A stretch of DNA of 14,356 nt from an uncultured Rhodospirillaceae bacterium (lineage in GTDB: Bacteria; Pseudomonadota; Alphaproteobacteria; RF32; CAG-239), in NCBI GenBank assembly GCA_900313355.1, contig OMQZ01000081.1:1-14356 (forward strand), in the 5' to 3' direction. Shown here piece by piece: positions 3,097 through 11,530 of this stretch. Made by a program: the position numbers and the translations under genes. The first letter of the stretch is position 1; each line of letters opens with the position of its first letter. Under the pieces are notes generated by a model that was not told the origin of the DNA, did not search any database, and was given only the letters and a program-made list of their open reading frames with translations.

Positions 3097-3654
3097 TTAA
3101 ATAAAACAAATCAATAAAAAAACAAAAATTGCAGCATAAAACAAAACACCTAACGGATAAGAAAAAGCAACCTTAAAATCTGTCGATGAGGGAAGGGAGT
3201 TTTCAATGATAATTGTTTGTAAAAAAACATACAAAACATAGTTTATATAGTTAATCTGAATATGGTTAAAAAACCAGCGATTAAAATAATATCCGACAAA
3301 AAGCAACAAAAACGGTGCAAGAGCAGACGGTAATGCATTATAAAAACGAACGTTTCGAAAACCGACACTGCCCATCACATAATATTCACCTTCTTTTTTC
3401 GGAAACAGATTAAAACGGGTCGGGTGAGCATTAAAAAATAAGCCGACAATAAAATGCGAAATTTCATGTAAAAAAGTTCCGGGAATATTAACAAGCGAAC
3501 TCATATAAATATTGGAATATGTCTGATATTTTAGCTTAAGCAAAACAATCACCAAAAAAATCATTAAAAAACGATTCGATACAAATATTCTAAGTGTTTC
3601 GGGATTGTTCAGAAAAACAACCAATTTATCAGCTAAAATCGTTAAAAAATCCAT
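3097..3654 (-). CDS. Small HExxH integral membrane protein, putative M50-like metallopeptidase
   Basis: The 185-residue protein has hydrophobic segments at about residues 27-42, 56-74, 108-124, 133-150 and 166-185. The zinc-binding motif HEISH sits at 63-67 inside a hydrophobic stretch, as in membrane-embedded M50 (site-2-protease-like) enzymes. A later motif LPSSTDFK at 154-161 could supply the third, acidic ligand (D159), in the place of the NxxPxxxxDG motif of classical M50 proteins. The start is supported by GAGG at 3663-3666, eight bases before the ATG. The gene at 7599-8270 has the same layout: HExxH, a G-rich stretch, an AP[FY] segment, then P-x2-TD-[FL]-K about 90 residues after the first His. 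Peptidase activity is inferred from motifs only, and the substrate is unknown. A non-catalytic membrane protein is the alternative. Confidence 0.65.
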   Translation of the reverse strand: MDFLTILADKLVVFLNNPETLRIFVSNRFLMIFLVIVLLKLKYQTYSNIYMSSLVNIPGTFLHEISHFIVGLFFNAHPTRFNLFPKKEGEYYVMGSVGFRNVRFYNALPSALAPFLLLFVGYYFNRWFFNHIQINYINYVLYVFLQTIIIENSLPSSTDFKVAFSYPLGVLFYAAIFVFLLICFI

Positions 3655-4560: not shown

Positions 4561-5397
4561 ATGAAAAAGTTATTTTTAAGCATTTTAAGCCTGTTTTTAA
4601 CATTAAACCACCACGCAAAAGCTGATGATGATTTTTTTGATAATTTAATCGTTGATGACGAATTAAAACAAAAAATTGAACAAAAAGACGCTATTGAAGA
4701 AGGAAAAAACAAAGCAAGCGAAATTTTAGACAGTAAACCGATTAAACTTCAAATAGATGACAATTTGAAACTTAAAATGGAAGAATTGAATGTTGAACAG
4801 GTTGCGCCTGTTATCAGAGAACCTGCGCCGTTCGGATTAAAATGGCTCGCAACAAAAAAAGAAATAGAATACTTGCATGTCAGATTAAATAAAGCGCAAG
4901 TCAAAGATTCTCCAAACAGTTATATAGCCGACAACTTACCAAAACCGGTTAAGGCTTTCAGAGAAGTTTTATTAAGTTTTGGCGAAAATGATGCATTATG
5001 GCGCATAGCTGCTTATTCAAATTTTTATGAAGATGATTCATCAGCAACAAAAGGTTTGGAACAATATAAAAAATTTTATGAAATGTTAAATGACAAATAC
5101 GGCAACGCTGAAGAATTTTATACACCCGCCGTTGTCAGTATTGAAGAAGAAATAACCTTAGATGACGGAACAAAATCACGCTCAATCAAACAAAAAGTTT
5201 TAGAAATGGGGGAACCCGGTTTTAAAGAAAAATTAATGAGCGGTCAATCAACACTTTATTCAACTTTTGAAAACGACACAATCGGTGTGACTTTAGCACT
5301 TTTGGCTGATGGAAACGGTCAAACATATATCATCATCGATTATAAAAACCTCAAAATTGATGAAGTCGAAAAACAAGAAATATATGAGGCCCTTTAA
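4561..5397 (+). CDS. Secreted/periplasmic protein of unknown function
   Basis: The 278-residue product starts with a clean Sec signal peptide: basic n-region MKK, hydrophobic core LFLSILSLFLTL, and AKA at 19-21, giving predicted cleavage before D22. There is no lipobox cysteine, so it should be soluble in the periplasm or exported. The mature protein opens with an acidic, lysine-rich, probably helical or coiled region (about 22-85), then a mixed domain from EPAPFGLKW onward to a strand-rich end (TYIIIDYKNLKI). I recognise no family. The start is supported by TTGGAGAAAA at 4547-4556, eight bases before the ATG. The stop TAA shares its last A with the ATG of the Mur ligase gene (TAATG), so translation is coupled. 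This suggests a role alongside cell-wall peptide recycling, but that is an inference from position only. Confidence 0.8.
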   Translation: MKKLFLSILSLFLTLNHHAKADDDFFDNLIVDDELKQKIEQKDAIEEGKNKASEILDSKPIKLQIDDNLKLKMEELNVEQVAPVIREPAPFGLKWLATKKEIEYLHVRLNKAQVKDSPNSYIADNLPKPVKAFREVLLSFGENDALWRIAAYSNFYEDDSSATKGLEQYKKFYEMLNDKYGNAEEFYTPAVVSIEEEITLDDGTKSRSIKQKVLEMGEPGFKEKLMSGQSTLYSTFENDTIGVTLALLADGNGQTYIIIDYKNLKIDEVEKQEIYEAL

Positions 5398-6779
5398 TGA
5401 AAAAAGTTTGTTTTTGCGGAATATCAGGAAGCGGAATGAGCGCTCTTGCTCAGGTTTTGAAAGCAAGAGGATATGAAGTCTGCGGCTCTGACAGAAGTTT
5501 TGATCAAGGAAAAGATAAAAAAAATAAAAAAGCTTTAGAGTCAATCGGAATTAAAATTTTCAAACAAGATGGTTCCGCAATTGATAAAAATACGGATTTT
5601 TTATATGTTTCAACCGCTGTTGAAGACACAATTGAAGATGTTAAAAAAGCCATTGAATTAAATGTAAAAATAAAAAAACGCTCAGACCTTCTTGCTGAAA
5701 TTTTTTCCAGTTATAAGTATGGAATTGCTGTCGGCGGAACATCCGGAAAAACAACCTTAACCGCAATGATTGGTTTTATTTTAGATCAACTCAAACAAAA
5801 ACCGACTGTTATTAACGGCGGACTTCTTAAAAATTATCAAAAACAAAAAGGAATACAAAATGTTATTTTAAATAACGGCAATATTTGTGTGATTGAGGCT
5901 GATGAAAGTGACGGATCAATTGAAAAATATAATCCTTATATCGCCGTTGTAAACAACATCACAATCGATCACAAACCGATTGATGAACTCAAAAAACTCT
6001 TTTCTGATTTTATTGACAGGTCGCATTTTGCTGTTGTCAACTTAGATTGTGAAAATTCAAAAGAGTTGATAAAAAACAAAAAAGTAAAAACATTTTCAAT
6101 CAAAAATCCGAAAGCCGATATATTCTTTTCAAAAATAAAACCTTTGAAAAACGGTGTTTCTTATGAATTTATGAAAAAAAGATTTAAGCTGAAACTGATC
6201 GGCGCATTTAATGTTTCAAATGCGGCAGCGGCTGTTTTAGCAACGTCAATGCTTGGAATTGACCCTATAAAAGCTGCTGAAGTTTTACAAAAATTTTCAG
6301 GAACAAAAAGACGTCTTGATGTTATCGGCACAAAAAAAGGAATATCCGTCATTGATGATTTTGCACACAATCCGGACAAGGTCAGAGCATCTGTCAGCGC
6401 CCTAAGAGATTATAAAGGAAGATTGCTCATTATGTTTCAACCGCATGGTTTTTCACCGATGCGTATGATGGGAAAAGAGATTATTGAAAGTTTTGCATCA
6501 TTGATGAATAAAAATGATATGTTGTTTATGCCTGAAATATTTTATGCCGGCGGAAGTGTAAAAAAAGATATTTCATCTATTGATCTAATTAATTATGGTA
6601 AATCTTTGGGTTTAAAAGCATTTTTTTATCAATCACGTGATGAAATCAAAAATCAAATCGTCAAACTTTCAAAAAAAGGCGATAGAATAGTGATTATGGG
6701 CGCAAGAGATAACAGTTTAACCGATTTTTGTAAAAGTATTTTAAAGGAAATAGAATGCTCAAAAAAGGAGATAAAATAG
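5397..6779 (+). CDS. Mur ligase, MurC/Mpl type (probable murein-peptide ligase)
   Basis: The 460-residue protein has the three Mur-ligase domains: a Rossmann-type UDP-MurNAc-binding domain (CGISGSGMSALAQVL at 7-21, GSD at 30-32), the central ATP domain with the P-loop GGTSGKTT (113-120) and EADESDGS (167-174), and a C-terminal domain with TKRRLDV, DDFAHNPDKV and FQPHGFSPMR. The signatures are mixed. ADESD is typical of MurC (L-alanine addition), whereas KRRLDV...DDFAHNP is closer to Mpl, which attaches the recycled tripeptide L-Ala-D-Glu-meso-Dap to UDP-MurNAc. The 25-base overlap with an LD-carboxypeptidase gene, whose product trims tetrapeptide to that tripeptide, favours the recycling role. 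The absence of other mur or fts genes nearby argues against the main MurC of a dcw cluster. The class is certain, the exact substrate is not. Confidence 0.85.
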   Translation: MKKVCFCGISGSGMSALAQVLKARGYEVCGSDRSFDQGKDKKNKKALESIGIKIFKQDGSAIDKNTDFLYVSTAVEDTIEDVKKAIELNVKIKKRSDLLAEIFSSYKYGIAVGGTSGKTTLTAMIGFILDQLKQKPTVINGGLLKNYQKQKGIQNVILNNGNICVIEADESDGSIEKYNPYIAVVNNITIDHKPIDELKKLFSDFIDRSHFAVVNLDCENSKELIKNKKVKTFSIKNPKADIFFSKIKPLKNGVSYEFMKKRFKLKLIGAFNVSNAAAAVLATSMLGIDPIKAAEVLQKFSGTKRRLDVIGTKKGISVIDDFAHNPDKVRASVSALRDYKGRLLIMFQPHGFSPMRMMGKEIIESFASLMNKNDMLFMPEIFYAGGSVKKDISSIDLINYGKSLGLKAFFYQSRDEIKNQIVKLSKKGDRIVIMGARDNSLTDFCKSILKEIECSKKEIK

Positions 6780-7627
6780 CCCTTGTGGCACCATCAGGCT
6801 GGTTTTCAAAATCTGATTTAGAAAACGCTTTGGATTGGTTTAAAAAACAAGGTTTAAAAACACAAATTATGCCTCATGCTTATGATGTAGAATTTTATGC
6901 TGCAGGAACACCTCAAAACAGAGCAAAAGATATAAATGACGCATTTAAAGATAAATCAGTTAAGGCAATTTTTTGTATCAGAGGCGGAGCCGGAAGCTTA
7001 AAAGTTTTAGATTTTTTAGATTTTGAGATGATTAAAAAAAATCCGAAACCTGTTTTTGGTTTAAGTGATTCAACAGCTCTCCAAAATGCTTTATATACAA
7101 TAACAAAAAATGTTTCATATACCGGATTTTTACCGATTTATGATTTTAAAGAAAATCATCTCGATTCAAAAATAGAAAACAGTTTATTTGAAATTTTCAA
7201 TAACAAAAAACAAGAAATTAAAGAATTTGAGGTTTTAAAAAAAGGCGAGGCTGAAGGTGTTTTAATAGGAGGGTGTTTAAGTGTTTTTAACGCGCTTTGC
7301 GGAACAAAATATTTTCCGAAACTGAAAAACAAAATCCTATTAATTGAAGATGTCGGTGAAAAAACATATCGAATTGATTTAATGCTCGATCAATTAAAAA
7401 AACAAAAAGATTTTGATAAGGTTAAAGCAATTATTTTCGGCTCATTTCTCAATTGTAAAATAGCTGACATCGGAGACGGAACAATTGATGAAATTATTAA
7501 AAACTTTGTGCAAACTTTAGATATTCCGGTTATTTATAATTTTCCATACGGACATATTAAAAGCAGATTTATTTTGCCGATTGGAAAAAAGATCAAACTT
7601 AAAACGAAGAGTTCAATAACATTTTAA
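6755..7627 (+). CDS. ldcA: Muramoyltetrapeptide (L,D-)carboxypeptidase, peptidase family S66
   Basis: Cytoplasmic S66 LD-carboxypeptidases remove the terminal D-Ala from murein tetrapeptides during wall recycling. The 290-residue product has the full signature: an N-terminal VAPSG segment (11-15), RGGAGS (76-81, oxyanion region), the nucleophile serine in FGLSDST (S104), the charge-relay glutamate in IEDVGEKTYRID (E198), and the histidine in YGHIKSRF (H267). It overlaps the Mur ligase gene by 25 bases. An AAAGGAAA Shine-Dalgarno stretch lies at 6743-6750, inside the upstream coding sequence, just before the ATG at 6755. Together the two enzymes would convert tetrapeptide to tripeptide and reload it on UDP-MurNAc. 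The 3' end overlaps the convergent gene at 7599-8270 by 29 bases, and no terminator is visible between them. Confidence 0.92.
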   Translation: MLKKGDKIALVAPSGWFSKSDLENALDWFKKQGLKTQIMPHAYDVEFYAAGTPQNRAKDINDAFKDKSVKAIFCIRGGAGSLKVLDFLDFEMIKKNPKPVFGLSDSTALQNALYTITKNVSYTGFLPIYDFKENHLDSKIENSLFEIFNNKKQEIKEFEVLKKGEAEGVLIGGCLSVFNALCGTKYFPKLKNKILLIEDVGEKTYRIDLMLDQLKKQKDFDKVKAIIFGSFLNCKIADIGDGTIDEIIKNFVQTLDIPVIYNFPYGHIKSRFILPIGKKIKLKTKSSITF

Positions 7628-8270
7628 TATAATCAATATAACCCAATGTTAATTGATTAATTAAATGAAAATATTGGATAAAACCTGTTAATCCTTTGCT
7701 GTTATATGCAAGCAAACTACCGATTGTATATAAATTTATTCCGGGTAAAAACATAAAACAAAAACGAAAACCGACTTTTTTTAAATCTGTTTGATCCGGA
7801 TGAATTTGTGAAAAAACAGTATCAATATGATAACCTAAAAAATAACCTAAAATGCCGTTCCATATTAATTGTTTCGGTAAAAAATTCATCACACATATAT
7901 AAATAAAACAAAACAGCGGAAAAAAATACGGCGCAATAATAATAAGCCAATTTCCATCACCGACAAACCCCATTTCACCACCTGTATCATCTGGATTTAA
8001 ACGGATATGTTTAACCTTATGAAAAGTAAGAAGCGCAAAAAAACTGTGTGTAAATTCATGAGCTATAATTTGCATTGATGTGCGAACACTTGCATCCATC
8101 ATTGTTTTTGAAAATATAAAAAAAACAACACCGGCTAAAAGAACAAATGTTCTAATGTTTGAAATTTGAAAATAATAAAAAGAATGAATCAATGCAGGGG
8201 TTGAAATAAGAACATACCACGTGATTGGCCATTTAAAAAAATTAATGATTTTATCTAACAGCGTCGACAT
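7599..8270 (-). CDS. HExxH integral membrane protein, putative M50-like metallopeptidase
   Basis: The chosen start is the ATG at 8268-8270 (MSTLLDKI), giving 223 residues. The frame can be extended to a TTG at 8291, but nothing supports that and neither start has a good Shine-Dalgarno sequence. Several hydrophobic segments are visible (about 17-34, 40-55, 64-82, 105-130, 138-150, 172-190). HEFTH at 71-75 is the expected zinc motif. GGEMGFVGDGN follows at 98-108, then APYF at 113-116, and IHPDQTDLKK at 156-165, where D162 could be the third ligand. This order matches the protein at 3097-3654 although overall identity looks low, so the two are probably distant members of one membrane metallopeptidase family. 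The substrate is unknown. The gene converges on, and overlaps by 29 bases, the LD-carboxypeptidase gene. Confidence 0.65.
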   Translation of the reverse strand: MSTLLDKIINFFKWPITWYVLISTPALIHSFYYFQISNIRTFVLLAGVVFFIFSKTMMDASVRTSMQIIAHEFTHSFFALLTFHKVKHIRLNPDDTGGEMGFVGDGNWLIIIAPYFFPLFCFIYICVMNFLPKQLIWNGILGYFLGYHIDTVFSQIHPDQTDLKKVGFRFCFMFLPGINLYTIGSLLAYNSKGLTGFIQYFHLINQLTLGYIDYIKMLLNSSF

Positions 8271-8594
8271 ATTTTTAATATATAAAAACAAAAAAAAGAC
8301 GCAAGCTTATTTTTAAAAGTGTAAAGAAAATTAGTTTGTTATAATATATATAAGACACTTGTTCCTTGGTCATTAGATATAAAATCTGTTCAAATTTTAA
8401 GAAATTATGAGGGAAACACAAGTTCTTACACAAGTGCTTTTTACGGCGACCAACATCAACAATGTTTAAAACAAAAAAAACAGATGTTTGAGAGATTTAA
8501 AAATATCTGATTTAGAAGATTTATGCCGTGTTTGCCAAGATGCATCGAACTGTCGTTTATTTATATTCTTTAAAGATGCACAAGTATTTCAAAA
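8271..8594. other. 324-base gap between the HExxH gene and dnaQ
   Basis: No intact protein gene is evident. The gap holds a perfect TATAAT at 8340-8345 and a possible small structured RNA just after it (8352-8468). The remainder, 8469-8594, has two short open frames without convincing starts and a repeated AAGATGCA (8537-8544 and 8573-8580). I found no terminator with a T-run for dnaQ in it. Confidence 0.6.
8352..8468 (+). ncRNA. Possible small structured RNA (unassigned)
   Basis: Seven bases after a perfect TATAAT (8340-8345), the sequence ACA-C-TTGTT-CC-TTGGTC (8355-8371) can pair with GACCAA-CATC-AACAA-TGT (8448-8465). This gives a closing stem of 14 pairs with a bulge and one internal loop, joining the putative 5' and 3' ends. 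Inside are small hairpins (AGAT/ATCT at 8375-8387; AATTT/AAATT at 8393-8406) in an otherwise open region. A long terminal stem around an open bubble resembles the topology of 6S RNA, but no 6S sequence signature was confirmed, the apical stem is short, and there is no -35 match or T-run terminator. A competing fold pairs CACTTG (8356-8361) with CAAGTG (8431-8436). A decayed gene is the alternative reading. Confidence 0.3.
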
Positions 8595-9287
8595 TTAAGA
8601 TTTTAACCAAAGAGCTTCTTTGATTTTTTGATTTAAAAACTCTTCATGATTTTTTTCATCTTCTTCACTCAATTTAAAATCACGAGGTTTAAGATATTTT
8701 TTTTCATGAGTATTTTGATTATCTGCTGTTGTGACAACTTTTTCTTCAGTATTTAAGTTCATCGTTGGTTCAGCTCCGCCTAAAAGCTCAAGATAAACTT
8801 CTGCCAATAATTCAGCATCAAGTAAAGCACCATGTTTTGTGCGCTTTGAATTATCAATATTAAAACGTTTACATAAAGCATCTAAGTTGTTTCGCGCGTT
8901 TGGAAATTTAGCTTTAGCAATTTCTAACGTATCAACAACTTCATGATCTTTTAATGTATCAAAACCGTTATGTTTAAGCTCATAATTTACAAAATTCATA
9001 TCAAATTGTGCATTATGAGCAACCATAATTCCGTCATCACCGACAAAATTTAAAAAGTCTTTTGCAATTTCAGAAAAGCGCGGATAATTTTGTAAAAATT
9101 CAGTTGATAGACCATGAACCTTAAAAGCTTCTTCAGGCATATCACGAAGGGGATTAATATATTGATGATATGTTCTTCCGGTCGGAATATGATTAATTAA
9201 TTCAATCGCACCGATTTCAACCAATTTATCTCCTTGATGAGGATCAAAACCTGTTGTTTCAGTATCAAAAACAATTTCTCTTAACAT
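8595..9287 (-). CDS. dnaQ: DNA polymerase III epsilon subunit (3'-5' proofreading exonuclease)
   Basis: This DEDDh exonuclease proofreads for the replicative polymerase. Of 230 residues, the first 170 form the nuclease domain: Exo I FDTETTG (D8, E10), Exo II VAHNAQFDMNF (D96), and Exo III HGALLDAELLAEVY (H152, D157), all catalytic residues present. The charged tail after residue 170 (rich in Glu, Lys and Asn) corresponds to the region that tethers epsilon to the polymerase alpha subunit. Its ATG (9285-9287) lies inside the end of coaE with a 7-base overlap, so the two genes are translationally coupled. The coaE-dnaQ pair next to the replication origin is a conserved arrangement in alphaproteobacteria, and both genes are read away from the proposed origin. 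Confidence 0.95.
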   Translation of the reverse strand: MLREIVFDTETTGFDPHQGDKLVEIGAIELINHIPTGRTYHQYINPLRDMPEEAFKVHGLSTEFLQNYPRFSEIAKDFLNFVGDDGIMVAHNAQFDMNFVNYELKHNGFDTLKDHEVVDTLEIAKAKFPNARNNLDALCKRFNIDNSKRTKHGALLDAELLAEVYLELLGGAEPTMNLNTEEKVVTTADNQNTHEKKYLKPRDFKLSEEDEKNHEEFLNQKIKEALWLKS

Positions 9288-9862
9288 TCTTCAATCTCAC
9301 TTAAAATTTGAAAAATATCTGTTGTTAAAGTTGAAAGACTTTGATGTGTGTTAAGAAGAAAAGATGATTCATCAACACTTAAATTATTATATTGGTTTTT
9401 AAAAATTTTATCAAAATCTTGAGCACTGATATGATCTCTTAACATCACCCTGTTTTGCATAACTTTATAAGGTGCTGTTGTGATAATTACATCAGAACAA
9501 TATTTATCTAACCCCATTTTATATAACAACGCCGATTCGATAAAACAAAGATAAGGTTTTAACCTGTTTTTATGAATAATATGAAGTAATTTTTGTTTTA
9601 AATAAGGGTGGGTTAATCCCTCAAGTTTTTGAAGCTCATTTTCATCCGAAAAAACAAGATTGCGTAAAATTTTTTTATCAAACTTTCCATTTATAAATGT
9701 TTGAGGAAAATTTTTCTTTATAAGATCTAAAAAATCTTTTTCAAAATACATTTTCCGACACCAAACATCCATATCAAAAACAACAAAACCTAAATCTCTT
9801 AAAATCTGGCCGACTGTTGTTTTACCGCTTCCTATAAAACCTGTAATACCTATTAAACGCAT
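9281..9862 (-). CDS. coaE: Dephospho-CoA kinase
   Basis: CoaE phosphorylates the ribose 3'-OH of dephospho-CoA with ATP, the last step of coenzyme A synthesis in the cytoplasm. The 193 residues match the usual length. The P-loop GFIGSGKTT is at 8-16, followed by VFDMDVWCRKMYF (D30, D32), where substrate-binding Asp residues are expected. Further on are the LTHPYLKQKL segment and the lid-region pair of arginines (QNRVMLRD), as in other CoaE proteins. The start is supported by AAAGGAT at 9868-9874, seven bases from the ATG. It is the first gene leftward of the proposed origin, and its start lies only 17 bases from DnaA box 1, so its promoter must sit within the origin region and may respond to DnaA. 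Confidence 0.95.
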   Translation of the reverse strand: MRLIGITGFIGSGKTTVGQILRDLGFVVFDMDVWCRKMYFEKDFLDLIKKNFPQTFINGKFDKKILRNLVFSDENELQKLEGLTHPYLKQKLLHIIHKNRLKPYLCFIESALLYKMGLDKYCSDVIITTAPYKVMQNRVMLRDHISAQDFDKIFKNQYNNLSVDESSFLLNTHQSLSTLTTDIFQILSEIEEC

Positions 9863-9878
9863 TTTTTATCCTTTAAAA

Positions 9879-9887
9879 TTATACACA
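9879..9887 (+). promoter_or_regulatory. DnaA box 1 (TTATACACA)
   Basis: This is an exact match to the consensus TTATNCACA. It lies 17 bases upstream of the coaE start codon, so DnaA bound here could also influence coaE-dnaQ transcription. Confidence 0.7.
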
Positions 9888-9901
9888 TTTTTATGTCAGA
9901 T

Positions 9902-9910
9902 TGTGTATAA
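9902..9910 (-). promoter_or_regulatory. DnaA box 2 (TTATACACA on the minus strand)
   Basis: TGTGTATAA on the plus strand is the exact reverse complement of box 1. The two boxes face each other 14 bases apart, forming an inverted pair. Confidence 0.7.
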
Positions 9911-10012
9911 AATACCCTCTTAAACGAAAGTATATCTTTTTATGCATCTTATTTAAAATAAATCAAATAAGTTATAAACATGTTCATTATTTTATAAACA
10001 CCTTGTGAATTA

Positions 10013-10021
10013 TGTGTATAA
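10013..10021 (-). promoter_or_regulatory. DnaA box 3 (TTATACACA on the minus strand)
   Basis: TGTGTATAA is identical to box 2. It is preceded directly by a one-mismatch box TGTGAATTA (10004-10012), giving two tandem sites with no gap. Confidence 0.7.
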
Positions 10022-10148
10022 AAGAACTAACATATTGAAATCAAATAATGAAAAAAAATTTTCATTTGTGAATGAATATATGAATAAAAAATAATAAACA
10101 ATCATCACAGAGATATACAATAACAACAATTATTTTTAAAATTTTAAA

Positions 10149-10174
10149 TAGTAGGTCGAACACGTTGTGAATAA
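10149..10174 (-). promoter_or_regulatory. DnaA box 4 with adjacent TAG repeats (unwinding-element-like)
   Basis: Read on the plus strand, TAGTAG (10149-10154) is followed by an 11-base GC-richer spacer GTCGAACACGT (10155-10165) and then TGTGAATAA (10166-10174), the reverse complement of TTATTCACA. On the minus strand this is box, GC segment, then CTACTATTT running into A/T-only DNA. That is the order and orientation of the DnaA-trio basal unwinding system known from Bacillus subtilis and other bacteria. Only two exact trios are present. Confidence 0.6.
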
Positions 10175-10182
10175 AAATTTCA

Positions 10183-10220
10183 TATCAAAACTTGACTTTA
10201 AAATACTTTTTTGATAAGAC
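10183..10220 (+). promoter_or_regulatory. Candidate rho promoter inside an inverted repeat
   Basis: TTGACT (10192-10197) and TAAGAC (10215-10220) are spaced by 17 bases. The -35 is good and the -10 is poor. A perfect 8-base inverted repeat, TATCAAAA (10183-10190) and TTTTGATA (10209-10216), brackets the -35 and overlaps the -10, so it could be an operator. The start would be about 50 bases before the rho ATG. Confidence 0.35.
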
Positions 10221-10276
10221 AAAAAATGTCATATTCTTGACGTATTTCCCACTTTTTTAATTTCAAGGTTTTTTAT

Positions 10277-11530
10277 ATGTATTTAAAAGATTTAAAAGAA
10301 AAGTCTCCTAAAGAGCTTTTAACATGGGCTGAAGACTTAGGTGTTGAAGAAGCTTCATCAATGCGTGTGCAAGACTTGGTTTTTGCAATTATGAATAAAA
10401 TTGCCGACGGAAATGAAGTCATTTATGCTGACGGTGTGATAGAGGTTTTACCTGACGGATTCGGATTTTTACGCTCTTCAAAATCAAATTATCTCGCAAG
10501 TGCTGATGATATTTATGTTTCACCTCAGCAGGTAAAAAAATATTCTCTTCGAACAGGTGATACGGTTGAAGGTGAAATCAGAGCACCAAAAGAAAATGAA
10601 AGATATTTTGCTTTAACAAACATTAATACAATCAATTTTGAAGATCCTGAAAAATCAAAACTTCGTGTTAATTTTGACAACTTAACACCTCTTTATCCGA
10701 CTGAAAAATTAAACTTTGATATTATTTGTGGTGAAAAAGATTATACAACACGTGTGATTGATTTAATATCACCTCAGGGAAAAGGTCAACGCGGACTTAT
10801 AGTTGCTCCGCCTAGAACCGGTAAAACAGTTATGCTTCAAAATATTGCACATGCTATTGCTGTTAATCATCCGGAAGTTTATTTAATGGTTTTGTTAATT
10901 GATGAACGTCCGGAAGAAGTAACAGATATGACACGCTCTGTAAAAGGTGAGGTAATTTCATCAACTTTTGATGAGCCGGCAACAAGACATGTTCAAGTTG
11001 CTGAATTAGTGATTGAAAAAGCAAAACGTTTGGTTGAAACCAAAAAAGATGTTGTTATTTTACTCGATTCGATTACACGTTTAGGTCGTGCTTATAACGC
11101 TGTTGTTCCATCTTCAGGAAAAGTTTTAACAGGTGGTGTTGATGCAAACGCACTTCAACGTCCGAAAAGATTACTTGGTGCGGCGCGAAATATTGAAGAA
11201 GGCGGCTCACTCACAATTATTGCAACAGCTTTGATTGATACGGGCTCAAAAATGGATGAAGTTATTTTTGAAGAATTTAAAGGAACAGGTAACTCTGAAA
11301 TTATATTAGATCGCAAATTAACAGACAAACGTTTGTTCCCGACAATTGATATCACCCGTTCAGGCACACGTAAAGAAGAACTTCTTGTTGATAAAGCAAC
11401 ATTATCAAAAATGTGGGTTTTAAGACGTGTGTTGATGCAAATGGGTGTGACAGACGGTATGGAATTTTTACTTGATAAATTAAGAGTAACAAAAAACAAC
11501 CAAGACTTTTTTGATAATATGAACTCTTAA
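10277..11530 (+). CDS. rho: Transcription termination factor Rho
   Basis: Rho is a hexameric RNA-dependent ATPase that releases RNA at factor-dependent terminators. The 417-residue length is normal, with no insertion domain. The N-terminal helical part (1-45) is followed by the cold-shock-like primary RNA-binding domain with [15 protein letters not shown] (53-67) and [19 protein letters not shown] (77-95). The motor domain has Walker A APPRTGKT (177-184), catalytic glutamate in LIDERPEEV (E210), Walker B VVILLDS (259-265), the Q-loop GKVLTGG (281-287) and the R-loop region [20 protein letters not shown]. The ATG at 10277 is preceded by AAGG (10265-10268). It is the first gene to the right of the proposed origin and is read away from it. 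A strong intrinsic terminator follows. Confidence 0.98.

Follow-up and report, generated by a model that had tools for sequence, protein, structure and literature searches.

A probable chromosomal replication origin in the compact coaE/rho interval of an uncultured alphaproteobacterium

Results

A gene-free, AT-rich gap with clustered DnaA boxes separates coaE-dnaQ from rho

We analysed a 14,356-nucleotide stretch of DNA (the window), which is contig C101 of the genome G000 of an uncultured alphaproteobacterium; this assembly comprises 1,244,173 bases in 219 contigs and is 77.8% complete. The window holds an intergenic gap of 414 bp (9863-10276) between divergent genes. To the left, coaE (dephospho-CoA kinase, 9281..9862, minus strand; TIGR00152, 120 bits, cut-off 66) forms the boundary, and dnaQ (DNA polymerase III epsilon, 8595..9287, minus strand; TIGR01406, 273 bits, cut-off 223) follows it, directed away from the gap. 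The right boundary is rho (transcription terminator Rho, 10277..11530, plus strand; TIGR00767, 680 bits, cut-off 509). The AT content is 80% in the gap and 67% in the window. No open reading frame longer than 49 amino acids occurs in the gap, and the overlapping frame of 49 amino acids is mostly antisense to rho. We found no Rfam family at gathering score and no tRNA gene in the window, nor any terminator within 9700-10400. A promoter scan of the latter region was uninformative, with 7 sigma-70-like sites where shuffles averaged 4.8.

The gap, a putative oriC (9863..10276), contains all four exact copies of the DnaA box TTATNCACA present in the window, at 9879(+), 9902(-), 10013(-) and 10166(-), spread over 296 bp. 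One-mismatch copies number 30 in the window, with five in the gap (9972+, 9992+, 10004-, 10067- and 10079-) and 25 elsewhere. The 34 window hits at up to one mismatch compare with a shuffle mean of 20.8, and 1 of 200 shuffles attained this number. The initial annotation had described four exact and at least four one-mismatch boxes in about 300 bases of gene-free, AT-rich DNA between diverging genes; the description is accurate, the one-mismatch boxes being five.

Counting exact TTATNCACA across the whole assembly, we obtained 48 sites versus 47 for the reversed control pattern. Thus, the motif is not enriched genome-wide, and its local density is what stands out. The genome-wide rate predicts 0.016 exact sites for a gap of 414 bp, and four or more would arise with a Poisson probability of 2.7e-9, before any correction for how many places were inspected. 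Nowhere else in the 77.8% complete assembly do 500 bp carry more than two exact boxes, the nearest other pair lying at C69:218/434. The density check proposed in the initial annotation therefore favours the gap, as a box cluster in gene-free DNA that is unique, for exact boxes, in the 78% of the genome at hand. The looser pattern TTATN(A/C)ACA is enriched in the genome (217 versus 147 for the control), and clusters of such weak boxes may exist elsewhere, beyond the matches listed.

Reading from coaE to rho, the gap opens with an inverted DnaA-box pair, TTATACACA-N14-TGTGTATAA (9879..9910), 16 bp from the coaE start. Two weak DnaA-like boxes TTATAAACA at 9972 and 9992 (+) lie in a block (9972..10000) that aligns with AACTTATNAACATGTTGATAA in relatives. 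Tandem boxes follow at 10004..10021 (-), where TAATTCACA with one mismatch adjoins an exact TTATACACA, and then two one-mismatch boxes, TCATTCACA and TTATTCATA (10067..10087, -). The segment 10092..10129 (+) starts with degenerate tandem boxes (2 and 3 mismatches), the first 9-mer of which reads TTATCCACA in several relatives in an alignment of 33 gaps, and continues into a well conserved CACAG..GATATACAA-ACAAC block. The rho-proximal exact box TTATTCACA (10166..10174, -) is directed into the AT-rich element described below. A putative rho promoter -35 element (TTGACT, 10192..10197, +) falls on conserved TTGAC columns of the alignment; it is absent from the promoter-scan list, and the pattern TTGAC-N18..21-TANA was matched in 25 of 31 gaps, the window's own not among them. 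Within the rho leader, GTCATATTCTTGAC (10228-10241) forms an imperfect inverted repeat, slightly varied copies of which occur in several same-genus gaps.

Elsewhere in the window, two genes on the minus strand encode small, apparently membrane proteins with an HExxH motif, one at 7599-8291 (Peptidase_M50B match, 37 bits) and one at 3097-3654 (no Pfam family at E 0.001). A MurC-like ligase at 5397-7627, scoring 309 of 335 bits and hence just under the murC cut-off, overlaps an LD-carboxypeptidase gene, a pair that suggests cell-wall peptide recycling.

The coaE/rho gap and its boxes are conserved in the family

Searching 57 genomes, we found CoaE in 48 and used the best 30 of these 48 loci, 29 from the same family and one (L060) from another family of the order. 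Here rho stands divergently beside coaE, with boxes between them, in 27 of the 30 loci (411-625 bases start to start by tblastn). Two of the other three (L036 and L056) end at a contig edge, and the third (L035, genome G002) has no rho on its contig. The box-rich gap of G002 (C1, L035 2080-2563) still lies beside coaE and is followed after the boxes by tRNA-Arg (TCT); this tRNA gene in the place of rho indicates a rearranged right flank.

The 30 loci and three additional records, after removal of the duplicates L061 (of L047) and L063 (of L055), gave 31 distinct gaps. Their ends were set by tblastn matches, so that some take in coding bases, and the right end of L035 was chosen by hand. Exact DnaA boxes are present in 31 of 31. 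The nine same-genus gaps hold 29 exact boxes (shuffle mean 0.6) and the 22 other gaps hold 64 (shuffle mean 1.0), totals that none of 200 shuffles attained in either group. Weak TTATNAACA boxes behave similarly, with 29 versus a shuffle mean of 1.7 in the genus and 47 versus 3.3 in the others. The inverted pair TTATNCACA-N14-TGTGNATAA occurs in 53 of 126 family genomes, at one place in each (reversed control 0), and its exact form is missing from the other 73; where both could be located, in 16 genomes, it lies 11-39 bp from coaE. The rho-proximal half of the gap also contains a well conserved block, in which a tandem box leads into GATATACAA-ACAAC, followed by a run of A and T and a box resembling TGTGNATAA.

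A probable unwinding element lies beside the boxes

Performing a nearest-neighbour scan of duplex stability, we located a probable DNA unwinding element at 10113..10153, the least stable 40-bp stretch of the gap and the fourth in the window. The least stable 100 bp of the window are 10051-10151, but their margin over the runner-up is only 0.1 kcal/mol, and scanning in 60-bp steps puts other places first. Low duplex stability is not unique to the gap within the window. The AT-rich, easily opened stretch that an oriC should have beside its boxes is thus found at 10051-10151, by a narrow margin.

A DnaA-trio-like CTA-CTA-TTT (10146..10154, -) lies 11 nt from the box at 10166-10174. The published trio rule allows a spacer of up to 16 nt and asks for at least three N-A-N trios on the opposite strand (PMC8287927). 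The arrangement TTATTCACA-N11-CTACTATTT on the minus strand (10146-10174) follows this box-spacer-trio rule. The likeness to the Bacillus subtilis-type basal unwinding system consists of a box, an 11-nt spacer and then CTA-CTA-TTT on the box strand; the differences are that there are only three trios here and that they are not kept across the family. Motif and spacing are identical only in L031-L034, four of the nine same-genus gaps, and vary in the others. We rejected DnaA-trios as a family-wide unwinding track, since they are kept only among the closest relatives. The track may matter in the window's closest kin, with other members relying on another part of the conserved block.

The gene order is best read as a classical origin region without its intervening genes

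We compared the locus with outgroup gene orders. Asticcacaulis (L076) and G042 share dnaQ-coaE-aroE-maf-ppsR, a gap, and hemE-hemH-hemJ-rho. Rhizobium (L072) has the left arm of Asticcacaulis and rho on the right, a presumed hemE being masked by an overlapping frame in the open reading frame list. G041 reads coaE-aroE-maf, gap, hemE-hemH-hemJ-rho, and G038 reads dnaQ-coaE, gap, hemE-hemH-hemJ-rho-rsmG-parA-parB. In all five, the coaE arm and the rho arm meet at one and the same breakpoint, marked by a gap that carries DnaA boxes or CtrA sites, and by gene order (L072, L076, L204-L206) the window's gap occupies this position of a Caulobacter-type origin. Gene names differ in their footing: hemE, hemH and coaE in L204 and hemE, hemH and ppsR in L076 score above the NCBIfam cut-off, whereas the matches to hemJ in the two loci and to maf and aroE in L076 fall below it; the other names in L072, G041 and G042, together with rsmG, parA and parB, were read from sequence and order.

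The boundary genes of the window's gap are coaE and rho, not hemE or COG1806 (ppsR). We detected hemE in none of 29 family genomes (G000 and 28 others; 11 belong to the window's genus and several are incomplete), and in 8 of 11 outgroup genomes, including G041 and G042, with misses in G033, G035 and G050. Taken together with the hemE search, these gene orders make the window's coaE-gap-rho arrangement best read as the classical alphaproteobacterial origin region from which the intervening genes have gone on both sides, hemE-hemH-hemJ on one and aroE-maf-ppsR on the other. The compact variant without hemE, as the initial annotation had it, is borne out. Its remark that coaE-dnaQ beside the origin is a known arrangement is right in part: coaE adjoins the gap in G038, but the classical order interposes aroE, maf and ppsR. 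We found no published description of the coaE/rho/oriC arrangement in the open literature searched, where the single paper listed concerned phytoplasma genomes.

Three of four relatives have their skew minimum at or near the gap

The window's own contig being 14 kb, we computed GC skew on contigs of four relatives (G008, G023, G002 and G021). In G008, a member of the same genus (151 kb), the cumulative minimum at 112,641 is 0.6 kb from the gap (113,241-113,658), and the mean skew is -0.091 on the left arm and +0.118 on the right. A two-segment change point, at 96,100, disagrees with this minimum and is 17 kb from the gap. In G023 and G002 the two statistics agree. G023 (392 kb) has its minimum at 189,558 and its change point at 189,500, the minimum being about 4.2 kb from the gap; for G002 (154 kb) the positions are 110,715 and 110,700, with the minimum about 5.9 kb from coaE. 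The contig G021:C1 (266,773 bases; L207, L214-L227) behaves differently, with positive skew on both sides of the coaE/rho gap, no sign change and a change point at 83,500. Exact boxes lie closest together at 150.7 kb, as a pair, and the gap holds a single one, although the looser TTATN(A/C)ACA is most densely clustered at the gap. The skew of G021 counts against the origin reading; an inversion or misassembly might explain it.

We also searched 17 genomes for exact parS (GTTTCACGTGAAAC) and found it in 15 (control 0). Six of these (G002, G006, G008, G015, G021 and G023) have a parS 4.5-22 kb from coaE on the same contig. The nine others, G000 among them, carry it on contigs without a coaE match. 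G002 has six exact parS on four contigs (C1, C3, C9 and C55), and parS is thus not confined to the origin region there. The dnaA contig of the window's own genome (C73) carries no exact DnaA box. The DnaA encoded on it has RDHTTVMHAVRKV in its last domain. In G023, dnaA is about 55 kb from the gap and about 51 kb from the skew minimum.

The genus lacks the CtrA-site and GANTC enrichment of its sister gaps

Caulobacter-type origins bear sites of the form TTAA-N7-TTAA for CtrA, the cell-cycle brake of alphaproteobacteria (PMC1914354). The window's gap contains none, exact or loose, and also no GANTC and no IHF site (WATCAN5WTR); at least one such IHF site occurs in 6 of 9 same-genus gaps. The 22 gaps from outside the genus hold 43 exact CtrA sites, spread over 18 of them (shuffle mean 5.1, attained by 0 of 200 shuffles). 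The nine same-genus gaps hold one versus 2.6 expected, and 58 of 200 shuffles had as few; the genus is therefore not depleted below chance but rather without enrichment. GANTC, which CcrM targets, follows a similar pattern, with 60 versus a shuffle mean of 15.5 in the 22 other gaps and one versus 4.3 in the genus (as few in 12 of 200 shuffles). The Fisher value of 0.0005 for the CtrA-site contrast takes no account of relatedness; the genus amounts to a single event.

Gaps without CtrA sites also occur outside the genus. Four of the 22 other gaps (L044, L055, L056 and L059) have no exact site, each retaining 2-6 GANTC, and among the six outgroup gaps only L076 and L060 have exact sites, the other four having none. 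In a concatenated CoaE-DnaQ-Rho tree rooted on other alphaproteobacteria, the genus forms a single clade within the family (bootstrap 100); its nearest neighbour is L047 (89; one CtrA site), and L037/L039 (three and four CtrA sites) come next. Given this nesting among neighbours with CtrA sites, loss of the sites is the simpler reading. We also counted GANTC over contigs of both groups, where it reaches 0.55-0.63 of shuffle; the control GTNAC is depleted too (0.52 in G008, 0.74 in G023), and the GANTC depletion thus says little about methylation.

The regulators themselves are encoded. The window's own genome has CtrA (404 bits, cut-off 350), GcrA and a CcrM-like methylase with a RAMA domain. 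Across the 11 genus genomes, CtrA is above cut-off in seven (end fragments in G004 and G010, nothing in G006 and G009), GcrA is above cut-off in nine (not in G001 and G009), and RAMA is above cut-off in eight (weak in G002, not found in G006 and G008). Incomplete assembly could account for some of these absences, yet G008 and G002 are 99% complete. An alignment of nine CtrA copies from the family shows near identity in the C-terminal part, beginning at about residue 149, so that an altered binding specificity of CtrA is unsupported as the cause of the missing sites. Loss of CcrM behind the missing GANTC is likewise unsupported for the window's own genome, which encodes the methylase with the RAMA domain; elsewhere in the genus it may have occurred, given the RAMA results in G006, G008 and G002.

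Upstream of ctrA we observed a core, TTAATAATTATTAACA, in 9 of 9 regions (L208, which is G000:C61, at 881-898, and G002, G003, G005, G007, G008, G015, G021 and G023). In G000 it consists of two back-to-back weak DnaA-like boxes, TTATTAACA, and can be read as TTAA-N6-TTAA as well. Either DnaA or CtrA could bind it.

Discussion

We conclude that positions 9863-10276 are very likely the chromosomal origin (oriC) of this uncultured alphaproteobacterium. The initial annotation had read the gap in this way, and the conserved boxes, the homologous position and the skew minima at or near the gap in three relatives lend it support. The skew check that it proposed, carried out on the relatives, gave a mixed picture, with the minimum close to the gap in G008, G023 and G002 and no switch in G021. 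The G008 change point, 17 kb from the gap, slightly lowers our confidence in the origin reading.

The boxes, the AT-rich stretch, their conservation, the homologous position and the three skew minima point to DnaA binding, unwinding and initiation at the gap. DnaA would bind the inverted pair near coaE and the middle exact boxes, fill the weak ones and spread towards the AT-rich element at about 10113-10153. This element is flanked by inward-pointing boxes, the degenerate tandem at 10092-10109 and the exact box at 10166-10174. Opening of the element by DnaA filaments would come next, with the trio-like CTACTATTT track, the ACAAC-rich block or both as the probable path, after which the helicase would be loaded. 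The spot itself was probably inherited from the alphaproteobacterial origin region, ppsR-maf-aroE and hemE-hemH-hemJ having gone, so that coaE and rho now adjoin the gap directly.

Dense DnaA boxes alone cannot separate an origin from a DnaA-titrating or DnaA-reactivating site (datA- or DARS-like), and we leave a small chance that the cluster is such a site and not an origin. The skew minima, which lie in or close to the gap region on three of the four contigs, and a position homologous to alphaproteobacterial origins argue against it, as do the parS sites within 22 kb on the same contig in six genomes and the want of a second exact-box cluster in the own genome, about 22% of which is missing. 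We give still less weight to the idea that the boxes only regulate the coaE-dnaQ and rho promoters while the origin lies elsewhere, for example near dnaA. The boxes do approach both genes, lying 16 bp from coaE at one end and 17 bp ahead of the putative rho -35 element at the other. Nine boxes over 300 bp with a conserved core would nevertheless seem to exceed the needs of two promoters; the boxes of G002 stay beside coaE though rho is not there; and the neighbourhood of dnaA is a poor candidate, with no exact box on C73 and about 51 kb between dnaA and the skew minimum in G023. DnaA control of these promoters on top of an origin function is possible. Chance clustering of a short motif in DNA of 80% AT is refuted for practical purposes, with box totals about 50-60 times the shuffle means, attained in 0 of 200 shuffles, and with position and spacing conserved.

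The origin reading places the gap close to Caulobacter crescentus Cori. Both share the breakpoint between a dnaQ-coaE arm and a rho arm, as seen in the Caulobacter relative Asticcacaulis (L076), and both are AT-rich regions of about 400 bp with DnaA boxes (Cori features as given in PMC1914354). The window's gap differs in its borders, which are neither hemE nor COG1806, and in lacking TTAA-N7-TTAA, GANTC and WATCAN5WTR matches. The origins of Ehrlichia ruminantium and of a Wolbachia from a pseudoscorpion are described as having few or no CtrA sites in genomes that encode CtrA (PMC1914354). These Rickettsiales origins resemble the present one in a changed boundary gene, scarce CtrA sites and an encoded CtrA, and differ in that they retain hemE as boundary gene, which is gone from the site here. 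The Sinorhizobium meliloti origin has no CtrA motifs, yet CtrA depletion is reported to uncouple replication from division (PMC4433202). That is another lineage, for which CtrA ChIP data exist; our case is made from sequence. Since CtrA-less origins are known in CtrA-bearing species, the phenomenon is not new in kind, and the lineage and the contrast between sister genera are what we add.

We see here an ordinary bacterial origin in a compact alphaproteobacterial neighbourhood, whose most interesting trait is that the genus lacks the CtrA and GANTC sites of its sisters. Tentatively, and at somewhat less than even chances, we suggest that the genus origin has been uncoupled from the CtrA/CcrM clock. 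The CtrA and GANTC sites would have been lost from oriC after the split from the sister genera, initiation would be set by DnaA without direct repression by CtrA, and CtrA, mostly together with GcrA and the CcrM-like methylase, would survive for transcription. The RAMA misses and the outgroup gaps without CtrA sites temper this suggestion. If it is true, the sister genera with their CtrA-rich origins would offer a natural before-and-after comparison.

Placing an origin for this uncultured family would allow coverage-based growth estimates to be anchored in its fragmented genomes. The gene orders suggest a plain path by which the classical origin, with hemE at its border, became the compact coaE/rho form in a family where hemE is not detectable. 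Finally, the genus appears to have dropped the CtrA sites of its origin with CtrA nearly unchanged, and the need for direct CtrA control of an origin may thus be asked between sister genera.
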